Source of the DNA: Clostridia bacterium
Lineage (GTDB): Bacteria; Bacillota; Clostridia; Christensenellales; Aristaeellaceae
Reading direction: 5' to 3'
Assembly: GCA_017396845.1 (NCBI GenBank)
Contig: JAFQKQ010000087.1
Coordinates: 1 to 63,428, forward strand
Length of the DNA: 63,428 nt
In this document: piece by piece, positions 13,818 through 53,311 of the stretch
How positions within the stretch are numbered: position 1 is the first letter of the stretch
How the letters are laid out: each line of letters begins with the position of its first letter
The notes under the pieces: generated by a model
What the model was told of the DNA's origin: nothing
Databases searched by the model: none
Seen by the model: only the letters and a program-made list of their open reading frames with translations
Translations under genes and position numbers: made by a program

Positions 13818-15800
13818 ATGAAGCGCTTATATCGATGGGGTTCCTGCCTGTTTGTCGCGCTGATTCTGCCGTTTATACTGTCTTCGGCGAAAGCAGGCAC
13901 GCAGGAAAATATTGAAATAATTTATACATATCTTACCGAAAACTACGGATTGAACAAGGCTGCGGTCTGCGGCATTCTTTCCAATATCCGCTCGGAAAGC
14001 AATTTCAATCCGGAAGCCATCGGCGACAGCGGAAACGCTTACGGCATATGCCAGTGGAATTCCAGAAGGCAGTCCTTGATCAATTACTGTGAAAGAAACG
14101 GCTTTGAAAGCTGGAAAAGTCTGGAAGGACAATTGGGCTATCTGGTATATGAGCTTGAAAACAATAAAAAGAGCGTGGGAACCTACTTAAAAAACGTTCC
14201 CAATACCGCGCAGGGCGCATACGACGCAGCGTATTACTTCTGCGTATACTTTGAAATCCCCGCCAACCGCTACGTAAAGGGCGTGACGCGCGGAACGAAC
14301 GCGGTGAATATCTATTGGGTAAATTACGGCGGAACAGTTGCGAGCTATACCGTTTCCTATCACGCAAACGGCGGAAAAAACGCACCTGCGGCGCAGACCA
14401 AAAAAGAAGGAATTCCGCTGCTCCTCTCTACCGCATCTCCTGTCAGAACCGGCTATTCCCATGCAGGCTGGGCCAGAAGCGCCAATGCTTCCGGCGTAGA
14501 ATTCGAACCCGGCGACACCTATTCCGACAATAAAAGCGTCACCCTCTACGCCGTATGGGAAAAATCACTGGAAGCGGAAACAGAGCCGGACGCGGTGATT
14601 ACGGCAAACGGAAAAACCTATGAATACTACTCCGGCGCGTTCACATGGGATTATGCAAATTCGTTTGCCTCGATCAAAGGCGGATATCTTGCATCCGTCC
14701 GGACGCAGGAGGAGTTAAACGCCGTTTCGTCCCTGATAGAGAAATCCGGCGGCGCATGCTGGCTCGGCGGCAGATACACAAACGGCAACTGGATCTGGTC
14801 GACGGGCGAAAGCTTCTCGGATGATTTTGCGGAAAACAATTGGGCTTCGGGTTATCCCATTGCGTCCTATGGCGCAAATACAAACGGCCGCCTTGCGCAG
14901 GACGAAAACGGAAGCTGGCTGGATTTGAAAAATGAAACGCTCACGAACGCCGGCTTTATCGTGGAGTACGGCGAAACCGCATCGGAATCCTTCCCCGAAT
15001 ACCGGATTACGGTTTCCACCTCCCTGAACCTTCGCGAAGGCCCCGGAACCAGCTACACATCCTTAGGCTATCTCTATCCCGACATGACGATCCGCGTGTA
15101 TGAAACCTGTCCCGGCTCCTCCTACAACTGGGGTTGGTGCATATCCAGCGCCGGAAGCAGCGGCTGGTGCGCAATGAAAATACCGGACTATATGATGGAA
15201 GTAAACGATGAGATCGACGAAAACGGCATTATCTATACAATTGAAGAAAATGAAGCGCATGTGACCGGATATACGATGAGCGCCGATACGCTCGAAATAC
15301 CGGCGCAGTATAAAACCTATCCCGTGACCGCCGTTAAGGAAAATGCATTTACAAAGACGCCGCCGGGCACGATCATCCTCCCCGACACGGTTACGGAAAT
15401 TCAACCCGGCGCCTTCCCCCAGGACGTACGTCTTATGGGCGCGCCCGGTTCCCGCGCACACTTCTACTCGGTGGAAAACGGGCATCCCTTTACGATCATA
15501 ATGCCCGCCGGCACATTAACGCTTCCGGCGGCCGTAAAGGAAATCCATGAAGGCGCGTTTACAGGCGCAGGAACCATAGAATGCATAGATCTTACGGAAA
15601 CAAAGGTAACTTCGATCCCGTCTGGCGCGTTTACGAATCTTTCATCCCTGAAAGCCGTGCTTCTGCCGGACAGCATCACCTTCATCGCAGAGGACGCATT
15701 CGATGCGGGCGCATCGATCCTCTTTGTAGTTACGCCCGGCTCGCCGACGGACGAATGCTGTCAGACGCTCGGTTTTGACGTGCTGGCGTTTACCCAGTGA
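13818..15800 (+). CDS. Exported mosaic protein: phage-type lysozyme, InlB repeat, C-type lectin, SH3 and LRR domains
   Basis: A 660-residue exported protein with signal peptide (cleavage near SSAKAG). Residues about 30-160 match the phage tail-tip lysozyme layout (NYGLNKAAVCGILSNIRSES, then YGICQWNSRR). About 178-250 is a Listeria/InlB-type beta repeat (YHANGGKNAPAA, ending TLYAVWEK). About 260-390 is a C-type lectin-like domain (CWLGGR, NWASGYP). About 395-455 is a bacterial SH3 domain (LNLREGPGTSYTSLGYL). The remainder holds BspA-type leucine-rich repeats (FTKTPPGTIILPDTVTEI). It likely cuts or remodels peptidoglycan while binding wall or glycan ligands. No anchor is seen, so it may be secreted. 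Confidence 0.85.
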   Translation: MKRLYRWGSCLFVALILPFILSSAKAGTQENIEIIYTYLTENYGLNKAAVCGILSNIRSESNFNPEAIGDSGNAYGICQWNSRRQSLINYCERNGFESWKSLEGQLGYLVYELENNKKSVGTYLKNVPNTAQGAYDAAYYFCVYFEIPANRYVKGVTRGTNAVNIYWVNYGGTVASYTVSYHANGGKNAPAAQTKKEGIPLLLSTASPVRTGYSHAGWARSANASGVEFEPGDTYSDNKSVTLYAVWEKSLEAETEPDAVITANGKTYEYYSGAFTWDYANSFASIKGGYLASVRTQEELNAVSSLIEKSGGACWLGGRYTNGNWIWSTGESFSDDFAENNWASGYPIASYGANTNGRLAQDENGSWLDLKNETLTNAGFIVEYGETASESFPEYRITVSTSLNLREGPGTSYTSLGYLYPDMTIRVYETCPGSSYNWGWCISSAGSSGWCAMKIPDYMMEVNDEIDENGIIYTIEENEAHVTGYTMSADTLEIPAQYKTYPVTAVKENAFTKTPPGTIILPDTVTEIQPGAFPQDVRLMGAPGSRAHFYSVENGHPFTIIMPAGTLTLPAAVKEIHEGAFTGAGTIECIDLTETKVTSIPSGAFTNLSSLKAVLLPDSITFIAEDAFDAGASILFVVTPGSPTDECCQTLGFDVLAFTQ

Positions 15801-15939
15801 GCACTTCAGCGGTATTATCCGCGAAATTAACAAAACGGAACTGGAAAGAGAACACTGTTATGCTATAATGATACTTGGTTTTTAGCGTCAATTATTATTC
15901 GGGTGCGAAAGCGCCGAAGATATACGGAGGCATACTGTT

Positions 15940-18900
15940 TTGCAGAAGAAGCCGTCAAACACCACAGCCAATCGCCGCCCGGCCGCCGCTCCTCAGAGAG
16001 CGCAGGGTGCGGCTCGAAATCCGTCTAATCGTCCGCAGGCCGCAAGACCTCAGGCGCGTCCTGCCGCCGCAAAAAGACCGGCAAGCGCACCGGCGAGAAA
16101 GCCCGCGCCCAAGCCCGCAGCTGACCGCAAAATTCTTTTCATCTTCCTTGCGGCAGTCGCATTTGCGGTAGCATGCTTTTTCCTTCAGAAGCATTTCCCC
16201 AGCGGCATCCATGTATCCAATCAAAGCAATCGCGTTCCCGAAGTAGATGCGGCAGTCAGCATCCGCATCACCGAGGTTATGTCCTCCAACTCCTCCGCCA
16301 TTCAGGATGACACCGGCGATTATCCGGATTGGATCGAGATTACAAACGTATCCTCCTCAAGCGTAAACCTGCACGGCTACAAGCTTGCGAAGGACACGAG
16401 CATCATGCTCAAATACTTTGAATTCCCGAACCACACCCTGAAAAGCGGCGAAAGCACCATAGTATACTGCACAAGCACCATCCGCAACAACTACGGCTAC
16501 GCCTATCACGCGCCGTTCAAGATTTCGGCGGCAGGCGATACGCTGATTCTGTTCAACAGCTCCGATGTTGCGATTCAGACGCTGAACATCCCGCCCATGA
16601 GCTCCAACCAATCTTACGCCGAAATCGACGGCGAATGGGTAATCACGGATGATTACACGCCCTTCCTTGCAAACACGAAGGAAAATCACGTGCTGATCAG
16701 CGACAACCGCCAGACCGTTGAAAGCCCCATCATGATCACCGAGTTCATGGCTTCCAACGTCACCTTCGCGCCCGACGAGAACGGCGAATATCTGGACTGG
16801 ATTGAAATCTACAATTCCTCCAATTACACCGTATCGTTGAACGGCTACTTCCTTTCCGACAGCGAAGACAATCTTCAGAAATGGCAGTTCCCGAACGTGT
16901 CCATCGGTGCAGGCGAATATCTTCTTATATATGCATCCGGCTATGACCGCAATACGCCCGGACAGAACCTGCACACCGGCTTTAAGCTGAACACGGAAAA
17001 GGAATGCGTAATCCTTTCCAACGCCGCCGGCCAGATGATCGATCGCGTGGAATACGATCTCCTCAAGGACGATCAATCGTATTCCCGTCAGGCGGACGAC
17101 TCCTGGACAACGATGCTGCCGCCCACTCCGGGCATGTCTAACAGTTACGAAAGCGCCGCGCTGATCGATGGTCAGTTCGCGGCGCAAAATACAACCGGGG
17201 TTATCGTGAACGAAGTCATGGCTTCGACCAGCGTTGCGAATTCCTCCGGCGCATCCTATGACTGGCTTGAGCTTTACAACACCTCCAATCTTCCCGTTGA
17301 CCTTTCCGGCTGGGGCGTTTCGGACGATCCTGCCGCACCCAGAAAGTGGCAGTTCCCCGAGGGCGCGCGCATACAGTCCGGCGGCTATATGGGCTTGATG
17401 CTTTCCGGCCTTGACGACAACATCGGCGGTTACTACCATACCAATTTCCGTCTTTCCTCCAACAGCGGCGAAACGCTCGTGCTTTCCGATCCCACCGGAA
17501 AGATCGTCGACCGCGTAAGCCTCGGAAATCAGTATTCCAACATCTCCTACGGCAGAATCCGCGGCGCAAACGGCTTCTACTATCTTTCCGCCTCTACGCC
17601 GCTCACAGCCAACGCTTCTACCGGCCATGTGTCCCGCATGTCCAAGCCCACCTTCAGCGTTCAGGGCGGTCTGTATCCGGCAGGAGAAGTAATCGAGCTT
17701 ACGCTTTCGTGCGAACCGGGCGCCGTGATCTACTATACGCTTGATTCCTCCACGCCCGATCCCAACAACATAAACGGTACGCGCTTCCAGCTGGATCCGC
17801 GCATTGCAAACGAGCGCACGGATTTCTATCAGACGCACGAGTATACCGGCCCCATCACGATTACGAATACCACCGTCGTCCGCGCGATCACCGTAAAGAG
17901 CGGACATATTACCTCCCTTGTAAACACCCAGACCTACTTTGTCGGCGTAAGCCACACCATGAAAGTAGCATCCCTGGTCATGAACCCCTATGACCTGTGG
18001 GATTACAACAAAGGTTTGTACGTATTCGGCCCGAACGCACGCCCCACTTCACCCTACGGCTCGCTCGATAACGGCGCTAACTTCTGGATGACCTGGGAAA
18101 AGCCCGCTAACGTAGAGCTGTTTGATCTGGACGGCACTGCCATCCTCTCTCAGGGCTGCGGCGTCCGCCTGCACGGCCAGTACAGCCGCGCGGAAAGTCA
18201 GAAGCCGTTCAAGGTCATCGCCCGTTCGGAATACGGCTCCAACCGCTTCAATGCGCCTTTGTTCCCGAACCGCGATTACACGGAATATCAGTCGTTCCTG
18301 TTCAGAAATTCCGGTCAGGACGTAAATAAGAGCCACATGCGCGACAGCATTCTGACCTCGCTCACCGCTGGTTCCTCCGTCATGTATCAGGATACCGATC
18401 ATGCGATTTTGTACCTGAACGGCGAATACTGGGGCCATTACTACATGCGTGAGCGCATCAACACCTTCTCCATCTGTCAGTGGGAAGATTGGGATCCGGC
18501 AATCAAGGACACGATTGACCTTGTAAAGGGCAATACGAAGCTGATGAAGGGCTCGGTCGATACCTGGCTGGAGATCAAGGAATGGTACGCCAAGCACGGT
18601 ATTGAAACGGCGGAAGAGCTTGCCTACGTCAATCAGTATGTGGATGTAGACAATTATCTCGAATATGTAGCGGTTCAGATGTTTACGGGAAATACGGACC
18701 TCCTTAACGTAAAGAAGTACCGCACCGATGAAACCGACGGCCGCTGGCGCTGGATATTCTTCGATACCGACTGGGCATTCTACACGGATACCAACTCCGT
18801 AGGACGCTGGCTGACGCCGGGCGGCGTAGGTACGAGCAATAAGACCGATAACTCGCTGTTTATCGCTCTTATGAAAAACCCGGTCTGCAAGGATCAGTTC

Positions 18901-19206
18901 CTCACCTATTTCGCCGACAAGCTGGAAAACGAATGGTCGTCGGAATCTGTGCTCGGCAAGATTGAGCGCCGTCTTCAGGAACTGGAACCCGAGCTTGACC
19001 AGCATCTGAGCAGATGGAACATTTCTCGAAGCGAATTCGATGCGGAAGTAAGAAAGCTCAAAAATTACGCAGCGCAGCGCCCGGGCAGACTTCTGTATTT
19101 CTATTCGAACGTACTCAGCAAAGCCGAAATGGAGAAGTATTTTGGTACGCTTCTGGAAACTGTCACCATGCTCGACGACAACAAAAAGCCCGTGGAATTC
19201 AAGTAA
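15940..19206 (+). CDS. CotH-kinase family membrane protein with three lamin-tail domains
   Basis: A 1088-residue protein. A Pro/Ala/Arg-rich cytoplasmic tail (1-62) and one membrane helix (about 65-82) are followed by three lamin-tail domains, each opening with (T/V)NE or TE plus (V/F)MAS and containing DWIEI or DWLEL (about 108-235, 260-395, 420-550). A chitobiase-like/Fn3-associated segment (about 570-660, VIYYTLDSSTPDP) and a CotH domain (about 690-1060) follow. The CotH core keeps KSHMRDS, GHYYMRERIN and WIFFDTDWAF with its acidic pair. Bacillus CotH is a protein kinase of the spore coat; here the domain is outside the membrane. The start is TTG after GGAGG. It heads the VTC/DUF4956 cassette. 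Confidence 0.9.
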   Translation: MQKKPSNTTANRRPAAAPQRAQGAARNPSNRPQAARPQARPAAAKRPASAPARKPAPKPAADRKILFIFLAAVAFAVACFFLQKHFPSGIHVSNQSNRVPEVDAAVSIRITEVMSSNSSAIQDDTGDYPDWIEITNVSSSSVNLHGYKLAKDTSIMLKYFEFPNHTLKSGESTIVYCTSTIRNNYGYAYHAPFKISAAGDTLILFNSSDVAIQTLNIPPMSSNQSYAEIDGEWVITDDYTPFLANTKENHVLISDNRQTVESPIMITEFMASNVTFAPDENGEYLDWIEIYNSSNYTVSLNGYFLSDSEDNLQKWQFPNVSIGAGEYLLIYASGYDRNTPGQNLHTGFKLNTEKECVILSNAAGQMIDRVEYDLLKDDQSYSRQADDSWTTMLPPTPGMSNSYESAALIDGQFAAQNTTGVIVNEVMASTSVANSSGASYDWLELYNTSNLPVDLSGWGVSDDPAAPRKWQFPEGARIQSGGYMGLMLSGLDDNIGGYYHTNFRLSSNSGETLVLSDPTGKIVDRVSLGNQYSNISYGRIRGANGFYYLSASTPLTANASTGHVSRMSKPTFSVQGGLYPAGEVIELTLSCEPGAVIYYTLDSSTPDPNNINGTRFQLDPRIANERTDFYQTHEYTGPITITNTTVVRAITVKSGHITSLVNTQTYFVGVSHTMKVASLVMNPYDLWDYNKGLYVFGPNARPTSPYGSLDNGANFWMTWEKPANVELFDLDGTAILSQGCGVRLHGQYSRAESQKPFKVIARSEYGSNRFNAPLFPNRDYTEYQSFLFRNSGQDVNKSHMRDSILTSLTAGSSVMYQDTDHAILYLNGEYWGHYYMRERINTFSICQWEDWDPAIKDTIDLVKGNTKLMKGSVDTWLEIKEWYAKHGIETAEELAYVNQYVDVDNYLEYVAVQMFTGNTDLLNVKKYRTDETDGRWRWIFFDTDWAFYTDTNSVGRWLTPGGVGTSNKTDNSLFIALMKNPVCKDQFLTYFADKLENEWSSESVLGKIERRLQELEPELDQHLSRWNISRSEFDAEVRKLKNYAAQRPGRLLYFYSNVLSKAEMEKYFGTLLETVTMLDDNKKPVEFK

Positions 19207-19236
19207 GCGCCAAAGGCCTTGGAAAGGGATGATTCT

Positions 19237-19950
19237 TTGCAGGAAGGAACGAGAAGCTTAATGCCCGAAAGGCATGAGCTCAAATACTTCATCAACCGCG
19301 GCGACATGATGGCTTTAGGTCACAAATTAGGCTATCTCATGACCGCCGACGCCCACGCGGATGAAAAGGGCGAATACTTTATCCGATCCCTGTACTTTGA
19401 CGATGCCTACGACACAGCCTATTACGACAAGACCTACGGCTACATGTCCCGCGATAAGTACCGCATCCGCATCTATAATCTGTCGGATCAGGCGATATTC
19501 CTGGAGCGCAAGCGCAAGATCGGCGATCTGATTCAGAAAAGCTCGGCGCGTATATCCAGAAAACTGTGCGACCAGCTGATCGCAGGAAACCCGAAGGGGC
19601 TTTCCTCGATCGACAATCCGCTCCTAAACGATATGTACCGCGAGATGAGAACCCGCCTCATGCACCCGGTCGTCATCGTGGATTACACGCGCGAGACGTT
19701 CGTATATCCCACGGAGAACGTAAGAATCACCTTCGACAAGGGATTAAAAACCGGTCTTTTCAGCACGGACCTGTTTTCAAAGGACATATTCACGGTAAGT
19801 CCGCTGGATACGGGCAGGGAAATTCTGGAAGTCAAATACAACCGCTTCCTTCCCGATTTCATATCCGAGCTTTTAAACGACACGCCTACCGAGCGCAGCG
19901 CCATATCGAAATATGTGCTGTGCAGAAGATTCGAGCCTCTGGACATTTAG
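19237..19950 (+). CDS. Polyphosphate polymerase (VTC) domain protein
   Basis: A 237-residue soluble protein matching the catalytic VTC domain that makes polyphosphate from ATP in yeast Vtc4. The expected tunnel residues are present: RHELKYFI at the start, RSLYFDD, KYRIRIYN, FLERKRKIG with KSSARISR, VDYTRE, FDKGLKTG, and EVKYNRFLPDFI near the end. No membrane segment is present, so it must join the membrane through a partner, most simply the DUF4956 protein next door. The TTG start has AAAGGG eight bases upstream; ATG at 19261 is a later alternative. It starts 30 bases after CotH. Confidence 0.9.
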   Translation: MQEGTRSLMPERHELKYFINRGDMMALGHKLGYLMTADAHADEKGEYFIRSLYFDDAYDTAYYDKTYGYMSRDKYRIRIYNLSDQAIFLERKRKIGDLIQKSSARISRKLCDQLIAGNPKGLSSIDNPLLNDMYREMRTRLMHPVVIVDYTRETFVYPTENVRITFDKGLKTGLFSTDLFSKDIFTVSPLDTGREILEVKYNRFLPDFISELLNDTPTERSAISKYVLCRRFEPLDI

Positions 19951-20028
19951 TGATAAACATGTGCGTCTTTGCCTCGTGAAGGCATTGATATATAACGCAA
20001 ATACGTAAGATTGAAAGGGGAAAACCTT

Positions 20029-20691
20029 GTGAACAAAGCAAGCATTGCCGAAATTTTCGCTTCCCAGTCCATTACGCCGAACTCCTGGCTCAGCATCCTC
20101 TTCCTGCTGATCATGGCCTTTGTAGTGGGTCTGTTCATCTACTGGGTATATCGTAAGAACTACCGCGGTGTGATGTTCTCCAACAACTTCGGTCTCACCC
20201 TCGTTCTCATGACCACCATCACCGCCCCCGTCGTTATGTGTATCCGCGACTCCCTGCAGCTGTCCATGGGTATGGTCGGCGCGCTCTCCATCGTCCGCTT
20301 CCGTACGGCGGTTAAGGATCCGCTGGACACCGCTTACATGTTCTGGGCGCTCACCATGGGCATTCTGATCGGCGCAGGCCAGTACTTCCTGGCAGCCATC
20401 GCCGTCGTAGGCATTGCGGCGCTCGTATTCGTGCTTCGCTACATCACCGGCAAGTCCGCTGACAGCTATCTGCTCGTAATGCGCATGGCAGGCGGCGCGG
20501 AAAACGCTGCGCTTCAGGTAATGCGCCAGCTCCGCTATCAGAAGCTCAAGAGCAAGACCATCACCGCGCACGGCATCGAAGTAACCTACGAAGTCCGCGT
20601 AGAAAAGAGCGAAGCGTTCCTGAACAAGCTCCTTTCCCTGGACGGCGTGAACGAAGCAAGCCTCATCGCTTATCAGAGCGAAACCACCTGA
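20029..20691 (+). CDS. DUF4956-family membrane protein
   Basis: A 220-residue integral membrane protein with about four hydrophobic segments in its first 140 residues (SWLSILFLLIMAFVVGLFIY, then a second near NNFGLTLVLMTTITAP, and two more through ILIGAGQYFLAAIAVVGI). The segment SMGMVGALSIVRFRTAVKDP is strongly conserved in the family as I know it. The C-terminal 80 residues look like a small cytoplasmic alpha/beta domain. Genes of this family often stand beside VTC-domain genes. GTG was chosen because AAAGGGG stands eight bases upstream. It could supply the membrane pore or anchor for the polymerase (inference). Confidence 0.85.
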   Translation: MNKASIAEIFASQSITPNSWLSILFLLIMAFVVGLFIYWVYRKNYRGVMFSNNFGLTLVLMTTITAPVVMCIRDSLQLSMGMVGALSIVRFRTAVKDPLDTAYMFWALTMGILIGAGQYFLAAIAVVGIAALVFVLRYITGKSADSYLLVMRMAGGAENAALQVMRQLRYQKLKSKTITAHGIEVTYEVRVEKSEAFLNKLLSLDGVNEASLIAYQSETT

Positions 20692-20701
20692 CAGGCATAG
20701 T

Positions 20702-20745
20702 AAAAGAAGTCCCAAGCGGCCAAGCCGTTCGGGACTTCTTTTTTT
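20702..20745 (+). terminator. Strong terminator closing the CotH-VTC-DUF4956 cassette
   Basis: A 12-bp stem (AAAAGAAGTCCC with GGGACTTCTTTT) and a T-tail directly after the DUF4956 stop. The A-rich 5' arm lets it also act on the convergent LCP transcript. Confidence 0.9.
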
Positions 20746-20773: not shown

Positions 20774-22006
20774 CTATTCCCCGCCGTACACAAATTCGAC
20801 AAAAGCATCATGATTCTTTTTATAATCCACATTATAGAACATGCCGCCGTCATCGGTATAGGTTCCGTTTACGGGAAGACGCATTTGCTCTACACCGCCG
20901 GCAGTAGCTGCTTTCAGGCCCAGCGAAATGATTTCAAGTACGTTCATATTGGTTTCAAGCTCATTAAGCGCGCTCGTTCCGATTCCGATCAGCGCAACGG
21001 GTCTGTATACAAAGCTCTTCATCTTAGAAACAGCCTCTGACAGCAGCTTTCTCTGCCGCTGCGTGCGCCCGTAATCGCTGTCCAGATTGCGGATTCTGGC
21101 GTAGCTCAGCGCCTGTATGCCGCTTAAATGCGTATCCTCGCCGTATTTATACAAAAGTGCGCTTTCGTATTCCTTAAGCCCCTCGTCGTAGGATGTTTTA
21201 CCGTCCAATACCCTCCGGTACAGCACCTCGCGGGTGTTATTGTTGATCTGCTCCATTTCCGCCTGCGTGATATCCATATCCAAGCCGCCGATCATGTCGA
21301 TGAGCTTTGGAAAGCTTTCGTAGTCGACCAGTACGTAACGGGTGACGTTAAGAGCGTAGTTTTCATTGACCGCCTTTATCAGAAGCTCCGCGCCGCCGTA
21401 GGCATAGGCTGCGTTCAGGCGTTTTACGCCGCTTCTTCCCGGAATCGATACGCCGGTATCGCGCATGAGCGAGGTGAGCTTTATATCCCCCTTCGCAATC
21501 GAGGCGATCATCATCGTATCCGAACGGCTCGTACCGCCCGCATCCCTGTCGGTACCGATCAGAAGCACATGCGTATACCCGGACGGAAGCTCATGATCGG
21601 CGCTGAACTGATCGGTATTGTGAAAGCCGAAAAAGCCTGCGGGTAAAAGGTACAAAAGATACGCAAACGCCGCCGTCAAAGCGATCAGCGCGGCGATAAA
21701 GCGCAGAAGATAATGCTTTTTACGCCTTACAGGCACATGTTCGCGCGCTTCGGACACATATCCTTCCATCTCATCAGCCTCGGGCGCATCGGCTTTGCGG
21801 GGCGTTTCAAACAGAAACCGAAGAATAGAAAACCGCTTTCTGCTTTCCGGCTCGTCTCTTCTTTGAGCCTCTTCCTCTTCGTACCCATAATCACGCCTTG
21901 CAAGGAAAAACACGCGCTTTCGCTTGTATGTCTGTTCCTCTCTTCCCGCATCCCTATCCGTCTCAGGCGCACGCCGGATCTTTTTTTTCGGTCTTTCGTA
22001 AAACAA
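20774..22006 (-). CDS. LytR-CpsA-Psr (LCP) family cell-wall ligase
   Basis: A 410-residue protein with a long charged cytoplasmic N-terminus (about 1-100, many Arg/Glu), one membrane helix (about 103-123) and an extracytoplasmic LCP domain. Family features visible are HVLLIGTDRD, SRSDTMMIAS, LTSLMRDTGVSIPG, KRLNAAYAYGG and YARIRNLDSDYGRTQRQ. LCP enzymes move undecaprenyl-linked polymers onto peptidoglycan. The Arg and Asp residues that bind the pyrophosphate are kept. The start is TTG with GGAGGGAAGGG nine bases upstream; there is no nearby ATG. It is separated from the GH130 gene by a probable attenuating hairpin. Confidence 0.9.
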   Translation of the reverse strand: MFYERPKKKIRRAPETDRDAGREEQTYKRKRVFFLARRDYGYEEEEAQRRDEPESRKRFSILRFLFETPRKADAPEADEMEGYVSEAREHVPVRRKKHYLLRFIAALIALTAAFAYLLYLLPAGFFGFHNTDQFSADHELPSGYTHVLLIGTDRDAGGTSRSDTMMIASIAKGDIKLTSLMRDTGVSIPGRSGVKRLNAAYAYGGAELLIKAVNENYALNVTRYVLVDYESFPKLIDMIGGLDMDITQAEMEQINNNTREVLYRRVLDGKTSYDEGLKEYESALLYKYGEDTHLSGIQALSYARIRNLDSDYGRTQRQRKLLSEAVSKMKSFVYRPVALIGIGTSALNELETNMNVLEIISLGLKAATAGGVEQMRLPVNGTYTDDGGMFYNVDYKKNHDAFVEFVYGGE

Positions 22007-47349: not shown

Positions 47350-48255
47350 TCAGGCAGAATACTTTTTGTTCATCGCGCTCTGATACGCCGCATAATTCGG
47401 GTACCTCATCAGGGATTCTGCGCCTGCCGCCTTTCTCCTCAAAAACTCGGACTGCGTGAGGATGTTGGGCTTTACCGTTTCCTCCTCTTTTGCGCTTCCT
47501 CCACCGCCGCTTTTCTTCGTATTCTTATAAAGCCAGTTCTCCTGCTCCTGTTCATCCATCAGCTTTTGATAATAGTAATCCAGCGCGTCATTATACGCCT
47601 GAAGATCGTTTAAATATCTCTCGTACGCTGTCTGATCCGCGCGGTTCAGATGCGCAAGCTCCCCTTCCATTCTGTCCGTTTCAAGCTCATATGCATTCAG
47701 CGCAAGCTTGTACATGTCGTCCATACCGCCGGATAGTTCGGCAAGGTAGTTCTGATACGCCTGTGCGCCCGCGCTTTCGGCAAAGGAATTGCCATAGCCG
47801 CCCGATAAGGAAGACGCCTGACCGATCGCGTCGTTCATTGCGCGTTTCCCCATATACACATACTGATCTTTATACCTTTGATACATGGGATCCGACGCCG
47901 GATCATAGGAAAACGCTTCGCGGTTCATCACCTGGTCCAGAAGTCTGTCAATTTCCTGCGTATACGCCGATTCATAATCGCCGGGTCTTACGCTTTCAAG
48001 ATGCGAAACCATCTCCTTCGTATTCATTTTTTCTTCTTTCCCCGCATCCGAAAACAGGCGCATCACCGTTTTCAGTTCCGCTTCACCCGTCGCATTCAGT
48101 CCGCGGCTTGACTGATATTCCTTTACCGCCCCCTCCGTTTCCTCGTCAAACACGTCCCCCTCCCTGATCTCGTATCCCGCGTCTCTGAGCATTCTCTTAA
48201 GCGTCTTTACTTCCTCGCCCACATCTCCGATTTTCAGCGACTGAAACGTCATCAT
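47350..48255 (-). CDS. Phage-block protein with N-terminal peptidoglycan-binding domain
   Basis: A 301-residue protein. Residues about 1-65 are a PG_binding_1 domain (LKIGDVGEEVKTLKRMLRDA, then FDEETEGAVKEYQSSRGL), normally found in wall hydrolases. The rest is long, helical and rich in Tyr, Asn, Gln and Ala (residues about 90-240), as in phage tail needle or internal virion proteins, with a GGGG linker near residue 250. No catalytic domain is seen. It might plug the tail or pin the particle to the cell wall. It is the last gene before the terminator. AAGGAG precedes the ATG. Confidence 0.7.
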   Translation of the reverse strand: MMTFQSLKIGDVGEEVKTLKRMLRDAGYEIREGDVFDEETEGAVKEYQSSRGLNATGEAELKTVMRLFSDAGKEEKMNTKEMVSHLESVRPGDYESAYTQEIDRLLDQVMNREAFSYDPASDPMYQRYKDQYVYMGKRAMNDAIGQASSLSGGYGNSFAESAGAQAYQNYLAELSGGMDDMYKLALNAYELETDRMEGELAHLNRADQTAYERYLNDLQAYNDALDYYYQKLMDEQEQENWLYKNTKKSGGGGSAKEEETVKPNILTQSEFLRRKAAGAESLMRYPNYAAYQSAMNKKYSA

Positions 48256-48278
48256 TCATTTCTCCTTTCCGATAATCG

Positions 48279-48815
48279 TTACATTAAATAGCACGCGCAG
48301 AGCGATACCCTTTCGCCCGCCTGCGCATTATTTCCAAAGGCAAGCACAATATCGCCCATTTCGTCAATCCGAAGCCCCGTTCCGCCCGATTCCGACCACA
48401 CAGGAAAAATCTGCGTATGAAGCGGACGGTATGCGCTTGTTAAGCTGCCAATCGTCAGCGTATCCCCCGCCATGTGTGCGCTTGAAAGATACGCGCCGCC
48501 CGAAACCGACACAAGCTTCATATGCCTTCTTACAGCGGGCGGATGATCCTGATCCGCCTGAACGCCCGTAACCGCGATCTCCGTCCATCCGCTGTCCTCC
48601 TCCATATCGTCAAGCCTTTTATTGATCGCCTCTATCTGCGCAATCGCCTCATTGGTCAAAGACGAAAGAAAGCCGGGTGAAAAATTGTCCTCGTCCAGAT
48701 GAGTAAACATGTACCGAAGGTTTTCATTCAGCTGATACAGCCATGAACGAACCTCCTGAACGGACTTGCCGAGATCATTCGAATCAACGGAAGGAGAAGT
48801 CATTATAAATCCCAT
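48279..48815 (-). CDS. Probable phage tail protein
   Basis: A 178-residue protein. The first 80 residues are helical with coiled-coil character (SVQEVRSWLYQLNENLRYMF, then AIAQIEAINKRLDDMEEDSG). The last 90 look beta-rich (YLSSAHMAGDTLTIGSL), the usual layout of small trimeric tail or fibre proteins. I recognise no family. The start overlaps the upstream gene by 13 bases and has GGGGAG nine bases before it; an internal ATG at the upstream stop (TAATG) lacks such a site. Its phage nature rests on context. Confidence 0.65.
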   Translation of the reverse strand: MGFIMTSPSVDSNDLGKSVQEVRSWLYQLNENLRYMFTHLDEDNFSPGFLSSLTNEAIAQIEAINKRLDDMEEDSGWTEIAVTGVQADQDHPPAVRRHMKLVSVSGGAYLSSAHMAGDTLTIGSLTSAYRPLHTQIFPVWSESGGTGLRIDEMGDIVLAFGNNAQAGERVSLCACYLM

Positions 48816-50425
48816 AGGCCGTCGCTCCCCGTTTCATAAGTTTGATCGATCCCCGTGATCGTGCATTCGCCGCGTCCTTCTATTTTCAAAAATACGCTGT
48901 CCGCTCTTCGCGCCTGAACGGGAATGGAGAAGGTTTTTTCCGAAGAGGGCGTATCGAAATACGCGCAATTGATAAACTCGTCTTCGCCCGCATATTTCAA
49001 GGCCACCGTAAGCCTCCCCATGCTTTTCAAAGAAAACCGTATATGAATGCGCGAAACATACTGCCTGTCAGGCGCTGTGAGCGCAATCAGCCCTGTAACC
49101 GCATGCCATTTCACATATGCCTCCACAAGGTACGGGCTCATGAACGAAAGCTTCTCAGGATCATACCATGGTCCGCCGCCGTTTACGCTGTACGCATTTC
49201 CGTCGGCGCAGATCATATACAGCTCCTTCCCCGCGCGGGTAAAACACCGCATGGCAAGCCCGTTTTCCGTATACCATGCGCCTGTGTTTACATCGTATAC
49301 AAACAAAACATACTTCCCAGTATACTGGTCCGTCATCGAAATATAATATCGTCCATCCACAGCGCCGGCGCTTCCGCCCCGATAATGCCCCCAGCCAAGC
49401 GCGTCTGATATGATCACGGGTATCGAACCGTCATAGCGGTATACGCCCAGCTGACCCTTGTAAAAAAGCATCGATTCCATATATGCAATCGAATTTTCCG
49501 CGCCCGCCTCCACACCCGGCATGCGCGAAGACACCAGCTCAAAATTGGATGGTTTATCGCCGAAGAGCTTGATAATTTCCTCTTCCTTAAAAAATACCGC
49601 GCGTCCCTGAAGCTCGGCGCAGCCGGTAAACACGCCCGCAGACGGCACGGAGGCAGCATAGGAATCCGTGGAAATCCCCTGAAACACATTCCAGTTCTTC
49701 GCGTCTCCAAGCTTGCATGCGCGTATCTCGTGCGTCTGATTGGAGACGCCCCAAACGCGGTTCATTGAAGACGTAAGAAAATCCAAGTCCGGCGCAGACC
49801 TTTTTACCGTTATTTCGCCTTCTTCCGAAGCCCCTTCGTCTATAACGGCGATAATTACGATAAAATCGTCGCTAACGGTCTGAAGGAGAAACGATCCGTT
49901 TAACATTTCATCGGAAAAACCCGAAATTTCTACCGCATCGCCGACCGAAAATCCGCGTCCGATACCGCTTGATGCGATTTTGACATAGTTGCTCGAAGGC
50001 GCTTCGCTTCCGTCGGCATTGGATATGCTGGCGTAAACGCCCGAAACCGTCACACTGTTTTCAATAGGCGTAAGTTCAAGTGTCTGCGTATTCAGTATCT
50101 TTTTATCCGGATATATCACGACATACGCGCCAAGAGATGCAAACTGCTTGCCGCCGGGCATTACGCTCCCGATATATTCAGATCCGTAATACAAGCTGCT
50201 GCCCATCGTCCAGACCATTTCGCCGTGAGAGTACATCGCGCCGACACCGGCGCAGTTTTCAAATACGCCCCTCACCTTTCTCTGGCAGATGGCGGGATAT
50301 CCCCTCGCGGACAGGTTCTCCGCCTCGGCAAAGTAACCGTCCGGTATGCTTTCCCGAAGGCATATGCCCTTAAACGCCTTTACGGCTTTCCTCCGCGTTT
50401 TGATATTTTTAATTCTCGGCTGCAT
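48803..50425 (-). CDS. Probable phage tail hub / stabilisation protein (propeller-like)
   Basis: A 540-residue beta-rich protein. Repeating strand motifs with aromatic and Gly turns (RVWGVSNQTHEIRACKLG, GQLGVYRYDGSIPVII, GRYYISMTDQYTGKYVLF, GAWYTENGLAMRCFTRAG) suggest propeller blades. P22 gp10-like stabilisation proteins have such a fold and a similar length and stand at the same place after gp4. No sequence signature proves it. GGGGAGAGGGG stands before the ATG. Confidence 0.6.
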   Translation of the reverse strand: MQPRIKNIKTRRKAVKAFKGICLRESIPDGYFAEAENLSARGYPAICQRKVRGVFENCAGVGAMYSHGEMVWTMGSSLYYGSEYIGSVMPGGKQFASLGAYVVIYPDKKILNTQTLELTPIENSVTVSGVYASISNADGSEAPSSNYVKIASSGIGRGFSVGDAVEISGFSDEMLNGSFLLQTVSDDFIVIIAVIDEGASEEGEITVKRSAPDLDFLTSSMNRVWGVSNQTHEIRACKLGDAKNWNVFQGISTDSYAASVPSAGVFTGCAELQGRAVFFKEEEIIKLFGDKPSNFELVSSRMPGVEAGAENSIAYMESMLFYKGQLGVYRYDGSIPVIISDALGWGHYRGGSAGAVDGRYYISMTDQYTGKYVLFVYDVNTGAWYTENGLAMRCFTRAGKELYMICADGNAYSVNGGGPWYDPEKLSFMSPYLVEAYVKWHAVTGLIALTAPDRQYVSRIHIRFSLKSMGRLTVALKYAGEDEFINCAYFDTPSSEKTFSIPVQARRADSVFLKIEGRGECTITGIDQTYETGSDGLWDL

Positions 50426-50437
50426 ACCCCTCTCCCC

Positions 50438-50797
50438 TTACGCAATCCGAATTCCGGTATTTGTGTTTACAAGCCGCGTCCGGTTGATATGATTGGCGTA
50501 GTTCAGCCACGCGGTATTGAACATGATCGCATCATTATTGAACCGCTCCGTTTCGCCGTTCATAAAATCCGCCTTCATCATGAGATAGTACACATACATT
50601 TCGCTGTAGGGTTCTTCTGCAAAAAGCGTCCGGTGAAGGCCTGTGCTTTCCGCTTCCTTCACAAATCCCTCTCTTATGCACAGGATTTCCCGTTCTATGC
50701 GTCCGTCCAGCTCCTTAAGCCATTCATCCTTTATATCGTCGTTATACGCATTAGGCCTCAGCCCGTCCGCCCTTTCAATCGCCTCGATTGCCGTCAT
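50438..50797 (-). CDS. Probable phage head-tail connector protein
   Basis: A 119-residue, mainly helical protein. It opens with AIERADGLRPNAYNDDIKDE and ends in MYVYYLMMKADFMNGETERF and NTAWLNYANHINRTR. Size, helical character and the place after the capsid gene match small adaptor proteins such as P22 gp4 or gp6-like connectors. This is inference from context. AAAGGAG stands before the chosen ATG; a 17-codon longer reading has none. Confidence 0.6.
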   Translation of the reverse strand: MTAIEAIERADGLRPNAYNDDIKDEWLKELDGRIEREILCIREGFVKEAESTGLHRTLFAEEPYSEMYVYYLMMKADFMNGETERFNNDAIMFNTAWLNYANHINRTRLVNTNTGIRIA

Positions 50798-50853
50798 ACG
50801 CCTGCTCCTTTCAAAAAGCGGCCATGGCCGCCCGGGCCACGGCCGCATGCCGA

Positions 50854-51090
50854 TTACATGTTCCTGGATTTTTCCAGATAAGTTTTTTCCGCTTTTTCCA
50901 TGCGGGTCACGGCGTTTTCATCCTCGCGCTGACTGCTTTCGATTACTTCCGCAATATATTCCGGAACATCCACATACACGCCGCGCTTGATCAGGTAGTT
51001 TTCTCCGTTTACACTTACGAACATATCGCCCGTATAGTTGTGATTGTCCTTAAAAAGCTTGATTCGAACGGTCTTTTTGCCTTCATTCAT
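50854..51090 (-). CDS. Small protein of the phage block
   Basis: A 78-residue charged protein with a beta-rich first half (TVRIKLFKDNHNYTGDMFVSVNGENYLIKRG, seen in parts) and a helical, charged C-terminus. It resembles no family known to me but is typical of the small open frame between capsid and connector genes. GAAGGGGGA stands before the ATG at about ten bases. Confidence 0.65.
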   Translation of the reverse strand: MNEGKKTVRIKLFKDNHNYTGDMFVSVNGENYLIKRGVYVDVPEYIAEVIESSQREDENAVTRMEKAEKTYLEKSRNM

Positions 51091-51106
51091 TTTTCATCGT
51101 CCCCCT

Positions 51107-52399
51107 TCAGTTGGCAGGCGCGTTGAGCGCATAGCTTGAAGCGCTTTCGATTCGAACCATGTACTGCTCCACCAGCCGGCTTGCGCATCTGGTCGCCTTC
51201 CAACCGACGCTGGAGCGCTGATTGAGCGGATCGTCGCCGTAACCCAGCTGCTTCACGATATGCGTAAGTCCGCCGCCTTCCAGTTCCGTAACCGCATACG
51301 CATGCGCGCCCAGAACGATGGTTGCATATACGGAAACGCCATCTTTTCCGCCGACGCCGGGGTATACGGTATCTCCGTCGGCAGGCGTGAACGCGGAAAC
51401 CGCCGCGTTCAGGAACAGCTGCCTGTTTGCCGTATTTACACCCTTTACGGTAATCTTTGCATACTGACCCGAAGCATTTTTGAGAAGCATTGTCTGACCG
51501 ATCATTTTATTGGCGTGCGTCACGTCAAGCGGCTGGGTAACGGTGAGCGCAAAGGCGCTGGCTTCTCCCGCATTGGCGCTTCCGGAGGCGCTTGCGGAAT
51601 AATCGGAAACGCTCAGCGTTCTTGAAGCGGAGGACAGATCCTCGCCTCTGAAAATCTTCGCTTCGCTGCTCTCGACAAACCGTATGCCCGCAAGCTTTCC
51701 GATTTCTCCGGCATAAATGTTTTCAGGCGTCGCATACTTGTGCGCGTCGATCCATTCTTCGCTGCGCATAAGGTCATACGCTACATACGGATGAACAATC
51801 GCCACATACTTGTCGTCGATCGGATCGGCGTTCATACCCTTAAGCTGCGCAGCGGCACGGAATATGAGATCCGCAGTCAGTTTGCAAGTGCCGTCGATAT
51901 CAAGGCGCGACGTGACGGGCGTCGCTTCTCCATCCGCGACAGACGGCGCATAGATTACGTTCGTGCCGCCCGCAAGCACGTCTCTGGTGATGGAATCCAG
52001 CGTTCGTCCCGCCTGTGCGCCGAGAAGGCGGGTCGCCTGAAGCACGTTATTGTCAACCGCCGACATTTCCAGCATATCGCTCAGCTGCACCCAATCGCCG
52101 TACTGCATCACGGTTTCGGTAACGGCGGAAACATTCAGGCTGTTACCCTCGGGCGTTACGCCCTCCGTGATGGGCGAAACCGCCTTTTCAAGGCTGTCAT
52201 ACTTTCTGAATTCAATGGTTTTTCCGCCGCCCGCAGGGATCGGATATTTGTCGCCGAACTGATCGTGAACCAGCTTGGGCTCCGCAATATCGATCAGCCT
52301 TTTCTCATAATACGTTTTCATCTCCGCAGAAAGATCGTTGCCTGCCTGCGCGCTCTGAGTGGTATTCACTGCAAACAGCTGCAGCCGAATTTTCTCCAT
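51107..52399 (-). CDS. Phage major capsid protein, N4-gp56 type
   Basis: A 430-residue major capsid protein of the HK97-fold N4-gp56 family, which also covers P22-like gp5 relatives. Family features are the opening KIRLQLFAVNTTQS, AEMKTYYEKRLIDIAEPKLVHDQF, GKTIEFRKYDSLEKAVSPITEG and VMQYGDWVQLSDMLEMSAVD. Further ones are LLGAQAGRTLDSITRDVL, AIVHPYVAYDLM, and the C-terminal AYAVTELEGGGLTHIVKQLGYGDDPLNQRSSVGWK (in parts). Residues 270-350 look like an inserted beta domain. It is full length and intact. AAAGGA precedes the ATG. Confidence 0.9.
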   Translation of the reverse strand: MEKIRLQLFAVNTTQSAQAGNDLSAEMKTYYEKRLIDIAEPKLVHDQFGDKYPIPAGGGKTIEFRKYDSLEKAVSPITEGVTPEGNSLNVSAVTETVMQYGDWVQLSDMLEMSAVDNNVLQATRLLGAQAGRTLDSITRDVLAGGTNVIYAPSVADGEATPVTSRLDIDGTCKLTADLIFRAAAQLKGMNADPIDDKYVAIVHPYVAYDLMRSEEWIDAHKYATPENIYAGEIGKLAGIRFVESSEAKIFRGEDLSSASRTLSVSDYSASASGSANAGEASAFALTVTQPLDVTHANKMIGQTMLLKNASGQYAKITVKGVNTANRQLFLNAAVSAFTPADGDTVYPGVGGKDGVSVYATIVLGAHAYAVTELEGGGLTHIVKQLGYGDDPLNQRSSVGWKATRCASRLVEQYMVRIESASSYALNAPAN

Positions 52400-52416
52400 A
52401 TTTTACTCATCCTTTC

Positions 52417-53166
52417 TCAATGAAAATACACCTTCTCGCCCCTTGCGCAGCGCCTTTCAATCTCCTCGCGCTCCTTTTTCGTCATGCTGCTGACGCTCGT
52501 CGGCGCAATCAGCCCGGCATTTTTTCCGCCGACCCCATTTTCCTCCGGGCGCATTCCCCGTGCGCGGATATCGTTGAGCGTACGCTCCATAGTCTTTTCC
52601 GCCGCATATTTTACGGCGTTTTTCAGCATTTCATCTTTGTGAATCACATCATACGCATCCCTTACGGAAACGCCCGAGCGCAGGAGCGAAAAAAAGCGCG
52701 GATTTTTCATTTCGCTTTTCATATCGAACGCGGGATTCCTATCCTGAATATCCCGCATCTCCCGACGCCATCTTTCCACCGTATCCCTCGCGCGCTTTTC
52801 CTTTAAAAGTTGCCTGTTCTCCATAAGCAAACGCTCGTTTTCATCGTTTCCGCCCGCTTCCGCACCATCCTTGGCAACCTTCTCCAAAAGCTTTTCCGCG
52901 TCGTTCTCGTTGTACTTTTCCCGAAGATGATCGATCAGCGGCTTCACCTTCGCCGCCTGCTCCTTAAGCGATCTCGTCTCCCGAAAGCGCTTGTCGATAA
53001 TCCTCTGAACGCGGTCGTCGAACTCCGCTTTGTATTCTCCGCGGATCAGTTTTTCAAAGTCTCCCCTTCTGTCCTGATCCTTGATTTCCCCGCCCGTATC
53101 CTCCGTCTGACTTTGCACCGCGCCTTCCTTTACATCGGTAAGCGCCTCAGCGATTGCACCATCCAT
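52417..53166 (-). CDS. Probable phage capsid scaffolding protein
   Basis: A 249-residue, highly charged and helical protein with coiled-coil stretches (RIIDKRFRETRSLKEQAAK, then ENERLLMENRQLLKEKRARD). It ends in a basic segment (MTKKEREEIERRCARGEKVYF). Size, composition and the place directly before the capsid gene fit a scaffold. It is the first gene of the block; no portal gene precedes it. AGGG stands before the ATG. No clear promoter could be found in the 220 bases upstream. Confidence 0.75.
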   Translation of the reverse strand: MDGAIAEALTDVKEGAVQSQTEDTGGEIKDQDRRGDFEKLIRGEYKAEFDDRVQRIIDKRFRETRSLKEQAAKVKPLIDHLREKYNENDAEKLLEKVAKDGAEAGGNDENERLLMENRQLLKEKRARDTVERWRREMRDIQDRNPAFDMKSEMKNPRFFSLLRSGVSVRDAYDVIHKDEMLKNAVKYAAEKTMERTLNDIRARGMRPEENGVGGKNAGLIAPTSVSSMTKKEREEIERRCARGEKVYFH

Positions 53167-53311
53167 AAAATACCCTCCATTCCAATGAATGCGATTCCCG
53201 CGCATACCGCCTGCGCGTATATACAGCATACAAAATTTGCTCATATACCGCTACACGCCATAAAATAACCATTTATTTTCCGAAATACGCATAAACAACG
53301 CCAGCGCCTAC

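Follow-up and report, generated by a model that had tools for sequence, protein, structure and literature searches.

VTC-domain proteins and DUF4956 membrane proteins form a near-obligate pair across the bacterial order Christensenellales, and their paralogue pairs co-diverge. The case that led to this observation is a cassette of CotH, VTC and DUF4956 genes in a Clostridia bacterium (Christensenellales; Aristaeellaceae; GCA_017396845.1), lying in a 63,428-nt forward-strand stretch of contig JAFQKQ010000087.1 (hereafter the window). On the best reading, a cytosolic polyphosphate polymerase would be tied to a membrane protein, either a translocator or a regulator, in the service of the cell surface, with polyphosphate presumably both synthesized and exported.

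The cassette comprises three neighbouring same-strand ORFs at 15940-20691 in the ORF list, all on the + strand. A CotH kinase-like gene (15940..19206) encodes a predicted exported protein of 1088 aa and is followed by a VTC gene of the Vtc4-type polyphosphate polymerase family (19219..19950; 243 aa, no predicted transmembrane (TM) segment) and a gene for a polytopic DUF4956 membrane protein whose last TM segment is followed by a C-terminal domain (20011..20691). Shine-Dalgarno spacing, judged by eye, makes TTG at 19237 a more likely VTC start than 19219, and GTG at 20029 a more likely DUF4956 start than 20011. A hairpin running into a T tract (20702..20742, +) closes the cassette as an intrinsic terminator; its folding energy of -27 kcal/mol (z -7.2) was equalled in 0/200 shuffles, and it is absent from the list of a generic terminator scan. 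The initial annotation, which described three adjacent genes ended by a strong terminator, holds here. Upstream of the first gene lies a promoter-like site of the extended -10 type (TGGAAA, 16 nt, TATAAT; 15842..15869, +) with 10/12 matches and a TG preceding the second hexamer, which is weak evidence because the region holds eight such sites where shuffled sequences average 6.5. No RNA elements were found at Rfam thresholds.

An LCP gene (20774-22006, -) converges with the cassette across the terminator. As candidate additional parts, the neighbouring LCP, GH130, Mrp and HlyD genes were dismissed, having no homologue (E 1e-10) in the gene models of 113 other loci. In the same comparison gyrB recurs in at least four loci, gyrA in at least three and an ABC ATPase in at least nine, the ATPase of the window being of a very common kind. 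The upstream 660-aa gene has a homologue only beside the second cassette copy of its own genome. These recurrence and cluster counts are lower bounds because the gene models are greedy and 24 of the 114 VTC genes have no model; the clusters around loci were annotated for selected representatives.

The CotH protein of the window carries three lamin-tail stretches (LTD, 2.1e-50), a CotH domain (PF08757, 2.3e-38, aa 742-1048, nt 18163-19083; 133 bits, cut-off 23.8) and an Fn3_assoc match in Pfam. A simple hydropathy scan places one TM segment at aa 65-83 after a basic N-terminal tail, which agrees with the membrane-bound, three-lamin-tail CotH protein first proposed. By plain hydropathy (no signal-peptide program), N-terminal TM segments were called in 38/42, 10/10 and 8/10 CotH partners; two pieces below 350 aa, one among the 43 of CotH and one among the 19 of Cthe_2159, were omitted. 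The tail has a charge of +15 over 64 aa (+16 in the paralogue), and is weak or short in most relatives, which tells against it as a conserved polyphosphate binder. Two aspartates, D195 and D217 (numbering of A4), are invariant in 18/18 cassette CotH domains. The cassette proteins thereby appear to keep two catalytic-type aspartates, one matched to D228 by eye and the other presumably D251. In CotH of B. subtilis, D228Q is inactivating (PMC7821199, excerpt). The relative L106 matches the solved CotH structure 5jd9 at 2.5e-17, and for the protein encoded in the window no solved chain came up at E 0.1.

The VTC protein matches PF09359 over aa 17-235 (2.4e-39; 135.7 bits, cut-off 23), its only Pfam domain, with no SPX domain detected. 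Hydropathy gives no TM segment in 85/86 models of its relatives and one in the other. Against yeast proteins, the VTC profile finds Vtc4 (8e-20) better than Vtc2 (3e-11) or Vtc3 (5e-10). Eighteen positions invariant among 26 relatives are kept in 109-111 of the 111 pieces used (from 114 VTC pieces), and seven of them align to tunnel residues of Vtc4; the positions aligned to K200, R264, R266, K281, K294, R361 and R373 are kept in 110-111/111. A soluble VTC protein with its tunnel residues, as originally suggested, is thus recovered. The Vtc4 residue numbers are mostly assumed ones, with a presumed numbering offset. R264, R266 and E426 are given in PMC12526157, and the alignment to Vtc4 stops short of the C-terminal part (E426 and beyond). 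None of the three cassette proteins matches the Vtc1-type TM domain (PF02656) at E 0.001. That VTC replaces the polyphosphate kinase PPK1 is unsupported, since PPK1 is commoner in VTC genomes (31/74) than in others (19/126); in the window's own genome (73% complete) PPK1 was not found.

The third protein matches DUF4956 (PF16316) at 1.6e-8 (34.9 bits, cut-off 30.6) and shows five TM segments at a lowered hydropathy threshold, in keeping with the polytopic protein initially described; 92 relatives have two to five segments each by hydropathy scan. Its match to MgtC (PF02308) stays under the cut-off (21.3 vs 31.4 bits). Profile-profile comparison, in contrast, aligns DUF4956 with MgtC over 140 columns, including the C-terminal domain, at 97.4% probability (E 1e-11, the value for a single comparison); in this analysis 20 of 30 MgtC loci passed a motif filter. 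Six control families reach at most 0.8% against DUF4956 and 1.0% against MgtC. By profile, therefore, DUF4956 is an MgtC-superfamily protein, resembling the MgtC/SapB family in the later TM segments and the C-terminal domain. It differs in being tied to VTC and in an arginine pair (VRFR) that is absent from aligned MgtC. The pair lies in the motif GMVGALSIVRFRTAVKD, just past the third predicted TM segment, and is conserved as R96 in 105/106 and R98 in 106/106 pieces (106 of 108 used). A polytopic protein with such a pair is compatible with a channel or an anchor, and the arginines may form part of a putative pore.

Among 200 genomes of the order, VTC and DUF4956 occur together in 73, VTC alone in one, DUF4956 alone in one and neither in 125 (Fisher 9e-53, with the genomes taken as independent and kinship ignored). 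In a phylum-wide sample both occur in the same 25/199 genomes, one of them the window's own, and among 14 control genomes three organisms match, identical for both families. DUF4956 adjoins 108 of 114 VTC genes; of the six exceptions, four sit at contig ends. Distances within the two families co-vary (r 0.92, n=106, from 106/108 pairs with the short pieces L071 and L104 left out); when paralogues were swapped within 28 multi-copy genomes, this value was reached in 0/500 trials (maximum 0.76). Co-occurrence, adjacency and co-divergence together rule out a chance neighbourhood, and the co-divergence can stem from co-inheritance of neighbours instead of contact. Seven loci matched DUF4956 without VTC, two of which (G021:C23 and G056:C54) overlap clear MgtC genes. 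Eight long frames scanned held no natural VTC-DUF4956 fusion. The sole fusion found, at L145, is between VTC and a fragment of CotH. The pair also appears in Bacilli, Actinomycetota and archaeal records (named loci being the best 80 of 514 confirmed hits), some of the carriers' phylum names being presumed ones.

The association with CotH is looser. Own HMMs find a same-strand CotH no farther than 5.5 kb away in 65/114 VTC loci, superseding an earlier count of at least 61/114 among the matches listed; in the other 49, some of them cut by contig ends, it was not found within that distance. Elsewhere Cthe_2159 proteins occupy the CotH place, and one or the other is present in 82/114 loci. At genome level CotH occurs in 69/74 VTC genomes (odds ratio 53, with the 200 genomes taken as independent), five of the 200 having VTC without CotH and 26 CotH without VTC. 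VTC and CotH co-diverge with r 0.83 (63 of the 65 CotH loci, leaving out L104 and L036, the latter without DUF4956). All 15 CotH proteins examined, from 13 of the 26 CotH-bearing genomes that have no VTC match (two of the 13 being <70% complete), look exported; an exported CotH therefore does not seem to require VTC. CotH accompanies the pair often, yet is exchangeable. The initial annotation had envisaged one CotH-VTC-DUF4956 machine, to be checked by genomic linkage. Linkage far above chance exists for VTC and DUF4956, and CotH is associated with VTC, but the three-protein machine is weakened because in many loci Cthe_2159 stands in for CotH or no CotH was detected, and because CotH also looks exported in genomes with no VTC match.

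The gene set was already described beside Pel operons in 2020 and 2025 (PMC7112168 and PMC12345266, excerpts); the additions made here are the near-obligate pairing, Pel independence, exchangeable CotH, conservation of the tunnel and arginine pair, and kinship to MgtC. The Gram-positive Pel accessory genes (cotH, PPP, DUF4956, DUF4832; PMC7112168) place the same families side by side, although no DUF4832 gene adjoins the window cassette. S. intermedius SIR_1594-1591 has CotH, VTC and a membrane protein in the order of the window, with CotH exported, but its CotH carries an FN3 domain where that of the window has three lamin-tail stretches (PMC12345266, excerpt). The membrane protein is described there as MgtC-type TM plus ACT domain, and SIR_1592 is taken to be the DUF4956 gene. 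As its excerpt reads, the 2025 paper encountered no such three-gene arrangement outside the Pel locus. It reports no phenotype for the VTC deletion, with Pel still made, which speaks against a strong VTC role in the Pel setting. In the order studied, PelG exceeds the cut-off in 3/200 genomes, on contigs other than those of VTC, and six further genomes have weak matches below it; PelG was not found in the window's own genome (73% complete), nor pel families among 40 window proteins scanned. The pair is mostly Pel-independent in this order, and a Pel accessory role is rejected as its general explanation. Surface-polymer contexts recur around VTC cassettes (Pel, GT2/HEAT and exopolysaccharide clusters). 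C. perfringens NELoc-2 and a Planococcus plasmid cluster (VTC-DUF4956-CotH-hypothetical-HEAT-GT) likewise hold VTC, a ~225-aa membrane protein and CotH in one run, but also include genes for a HEAT-repeat protein and for a glycosyltransferase, neither of which is beside the window cassette. The NELoc-2 'tubulin/FtsZ' membrane genes are probably DUF4956, judging from size and place.

The preferred account, at a probability of about 0.45, is a two-part module of a Vtc4-type polymerase and a DUF4956 membrane holder or translocator, with exported CotH as surface partner. Soluble VTC would make polyphosphate from ATP at the inner face of the membrane, where DUF4956 would anchor it and most likely carry the chain through the cytoplasmic membrane, the role of the Vtc1/3/4 membrane domains in yeast. 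Outside, the CotH/lamin-tail protein may phosphorylate the surface, or bind or organise the polymer or matrix. The eukaryotic VTC complex (Vtc1/Vtc3/Vtc4) likewise joins a Vtc4-type catalytic domain with tunnel residues to membrane partners with conserved basic residues; in yeast such TM residues line the channel, and their mutation alters synthesis (PMC9911596, excerpt). The window differs in having no SPX or Vtc1-type TM domain, its partner being a separate MgtC-superfamily gene. A full bacterial counterpart of that complex, in which DUF4956 is the polymerase's channel and the cell surface makes use of the exported polyphosphate (where CotH is present, to donate phosphate for extracytoplasmic phosphorylation of proteins or polysaccharides), is considered very unlikely; it would also suggest that the MgtC superfamily has a phosphate-polymer function.

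Intracellular regulation is a rather unlikely alternative. VTC and DUF4956 would then cooperate without polyphosphate export, DUF4956 acting like MgtC on phosphate/ATP balance or surface-polymer synthesis and VTC making or sensing a polyphosphate signal. MgtC is described as a regulator, and in S. intermedius Pel rose when SIR_1592 (MgtC + ACT) was deleted and fell when the CotH gene was, the VTC deletion having no reported effect (PMC12345266, excerpt). The profile match to MgtC, C-terminal domain included, points the same way, as do two-component genes within 8 kb of 16-19 loci (a raw count without chance baseline, from greedy gene models). This account leaves unexplained a near-constant polytopic partner with a non-MgtC arginine pair and a recurrent exported third partner. 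The triphosphate-tunnel fold has several activities, and VTC could instead be a hydrolase or transferase that makes no polymer. The literature searched, partly in excerpt, describes no activity of any bacterial VTC protein, and in a 2026 paper VTC4 figures only as a eukaryal enzyme (PMC13318637, excerpt). The profile, however, matches Vtc4 and not just the fold, with the seven tunnel positions kept, and such a role seems improbable. Slighter still is the chance that exported polyphosphate is the phosphate donor for an extracytoplasmic CotH kinase otherwise without ATP. The predicted topological split of VTC inside and CotH outside (hydropathy) would suit it, as would their association and co-divergence and the two invariant aspartates. 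An obligate donor role is weakened by exported CotH in genomes without a VTC match (15/15), and CotH is not near VTC in 49/114 loci.

The VTC-DUF4956 pair is common in the order (73 of 200 genomes), yet the literature searched, partly in excerpt, holds no report of its activity. If the preferred module makes and exports polyphosphate, it would constitute a second, membrane-coupled bacterial route to the polymer besides PPK. Extracytoplasmic kinases may then draw phosphate from a source other than ATP, and the MgtC superfamily would gain a biochemical lead. With CotH, VTC and DUF4956 laid out free of Pel, these questions can be tested away from the polysaccharide operon, and the standalone cassette is a good place to ask about bacterial polyphosphate export.

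The window carries three plus-strand genes that encode, in order, a CotH/lamin-tail membrane protein (15940-19206), a VTC protein related to the yeast polyphosphate (polyP) polymerase Vtc4 (19219-19950), and DUF4956, a membrane protein of the MgtC superfamily (20011-20691). The initial annotation, which had assigned these products, was borne out for all three genes and for the terminator behind them, which closes the cassette with a hairpin (-27 kcal/mol) leading into a T tract; its observation was sound and reaches wider than sequence alone could tell. Judging ribosome-site spacing by eye, we would put the start of VTC at 19237 and that of DUF4956 at 20029. The CotH protein begins with a basic 64-residue tail and a transmembrane (TM) segment, followed by three lamin-tail stretches; its CotH domain spans residues 742-1048. 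The tail (15940-16131; net charge +15) is rich in Arg, Lys, Ala, and Pro, recurs in a paralogue (+16), and is not general among relatives. The upstream neighbour (13818-15800) encodes a 660-residue protein with phage-tail-lysozyme, List_Bact repeat, SH3, C-type-lectin, and LRR_5 domains. Elsewhere in the window, minus-strand genes at 47350-53244 are possibly a prophage remnant, encoding an endolysin-like peptidoglycan-binding protein, an internal virion protein (phrog_511), a major head protein (phrog_1357), and members of two functionally uncharacterised phage families; neither terminase nor portal was found among the ten proteins scanned there.

VTC and DUF4956 are closely linked across genomes. 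Of 200 genomes sampled from the window's order, 74 have VTC and 74 have DUF4956, with both in 73. Loci were defined as up to 8 kb on each side of every VTC match (112 loci, plus the window and its genome's second copy, giving 114), in which families were re-detected with HMMs built for this analysis. DUF4956 accompanies VTC in 108 of the 114 loci, CotH in 65, Cthe_2159 (PF14262) in 19, and one or other of the latter two in 82. Of the three families whose co-occurrence was proposed, VTC and DUF4956 nearly always go together, and CotH is frequent and exchangeable. The layouts are CotH-VTC-DUF (41), VTC-DUF (22), VTC-DUF-Cthe_2159 (15), VTC-DUF-CotH (14), CotH-DUF-VTC (7), DUF-VTC (5), VTC alone (5), CotH-VTC (1), and four mixed layouts that occur once each. 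Six loci lack DUF4956; four of these stop at a contig edge (L036, L103, L126, and L149) and L147 is unexplained. Locus L145 (7965-9305) encodes VTC fused to a fragment of the CotH C-lobe (CotH E 0.0083, under the cut-off), without DUF4956. In the closest relatives (L150-L154) an additional CotH gene, absent from the window, lies downstream of DUF4956 (CotH-VTC-DUF4956-CotH).

The linkage extends beyond the order. In a phylum-wide sample of 199 genomes, VTC and DUF4956 occur in the same 25, and by our own count 29 of 32 VTC matches have DUF4956 within 1.5 kb on the same strand. Among 80 named loci with DUF4956, the best 80 of 514 confirmed matches, VTC is present in 78, usually next to DUF4956, and the remaining two meet a contig end soon after. 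These loci come from, among others, Paenibacillus, Lysinibacillus, Cytobacillus, Trichococcus, an Atopobium, and a Bathyarchaeota MAG. Two plasmid records contain VTC: in Pseudobutyrivibrio (L275) the cassette lies within an exopolysaccharide cluster, and in Planococcus (L276) the run is VTC-DUF4956-CotH-hypothetical-HEAT-GT.

The components have also diverged together. Across 106 loci, distances in VTC and in DUF4956 correlate with r 0.92. The highest value under random permutation was 0.12; when copies were swapped only inside the 28 genomes with several copies (62 loci), it was 0.76, with none of 500 swaps reaching the observed value. For VTC and CotH, r is 0.83 across 63 loci, and swaps inside genomes gave 0.73 at most. 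VTC falls into two classes, as does DUF4956, and the classes correspond in 105 of 106 loci; one VTC class accounts for 62 of the 63 CotH loci, and the other for 17 of the 19 with Cthe_2159. This co-divergence shows that the genes are inherited as a unit and is no proof of physical contact. In loci of the second class (L060, L088, and others), an exported-looking Cthe_2159 protein follows VTC-DUF4956 instead of CotH. By raw count, 16-19 of the 114 loci have two-component genes nearby. The window's genome holds a second CotH-VTC pair (L036; contig C115, 1752-5759) on a contig that ends after VTC, with 74% identity to the window in VTC and 77% in the C-terminal part of CotH. The duplicated block seems to include the upstream 660-residue gene, since a homologue is present on that contig.

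Alone, the window's VTC protein matches Vtc4 weakly (E 0.024), while a profile built from 26 relatives recovers Vtc4 at 8e-20, better than Vtc2 and Vtc3. Eighteen VTC positions are kept in 109-111 of 111 sequences; seven align with tunnel residues of Vtc4, in agreement with the tunnel proposed initially. A TM segment is absent in 85 of 86 models of VTC relatives. Each of 18 cassette CotH domains keeps two Asp residues, which align, via a relative, with motifs of the solved CotH structure 5jd9. All 15 CotH proteins examined from genomes without a VTC match (13 of 26 such genomes) look exported.

The gene set is already in print, with cassette genes treated in PMC7112168, PMC2879425, and PMC11677781. 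In streptococci and clostridia, cotH, a poly-phosphate polymerase, DUF4956, and DUF4832 are accessory genes contiguous with pelDEADAFG, with a variant arrangement in bifidobacteria (PMC7112168). The NELoc-2 list of Clostridium perfringens comprises VTC, 'tubulin/FtsZ' membrane genes, CotH, and a chitin-synthase-like gene (PMC2879425), and the locus was found again later (PMC11677781). The authors of the Streptococcus intermedius study state that they could not find the accessory genes in this syntenic order away from the Pel locus (PMC12345266). In the window's order, PelG, the sole Pel family searched, exceeds the cut-off in 3 of 200 genomes (G111, G167, and G004) and not in the window's own; no PelG match in these three shares a contig with any VTC match, although draft assemblies can hide linkage. 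The arrangement is therefore common without Pel in this order.

The window's DUF4956 protein has five TM segments at a lowered threshold (two to five in relatives), and its relatives share the motif GMVGALSIVRFR. Of 106 sequences, 105 keep R96 and all 106 keep R98. This Arg pair follows the third predicted TM segment, which ends at residue 92, and by the positive-inside rule would lie at its cytosolic end. A sequence search returned no related solved structure below E 0.3. In profile-profile comparison, DUF4956 matches 20 MgtC proteins at 97.4% across the later TM segments and the C-terminal domain, against 0.2% for VTC with MgtC and at most 1.0% for six other families with DUF4956 or MgtC. 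That DUF4956 is an MgtC-like regulator is a serious alternative, with which the S. intermedius mutant phenotypes agree. There, each accessory gene was deleted and all mutants still produced Pel, which increased without SIR_1592 and decreased without CotH; both of these mutants lost more than 50% of aggregation in sputum medium, and no change was reported for the VTC-type mutant (PMC12345266). SIR_1592, which we take to be the DUF4956 gene, is described there as MgtC plus ACT and not by the name DUF4956. The literature searched gave no report of activity for a bacterial VTC protein.

The comparative evidence supports VTC-DUF4956 as a two-component unit that would serve the cell surface, its exported partners being exchangeable. 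The predicted VTC polymerase would likely synthesise polyP; CotH may use it, and its export is plausible.
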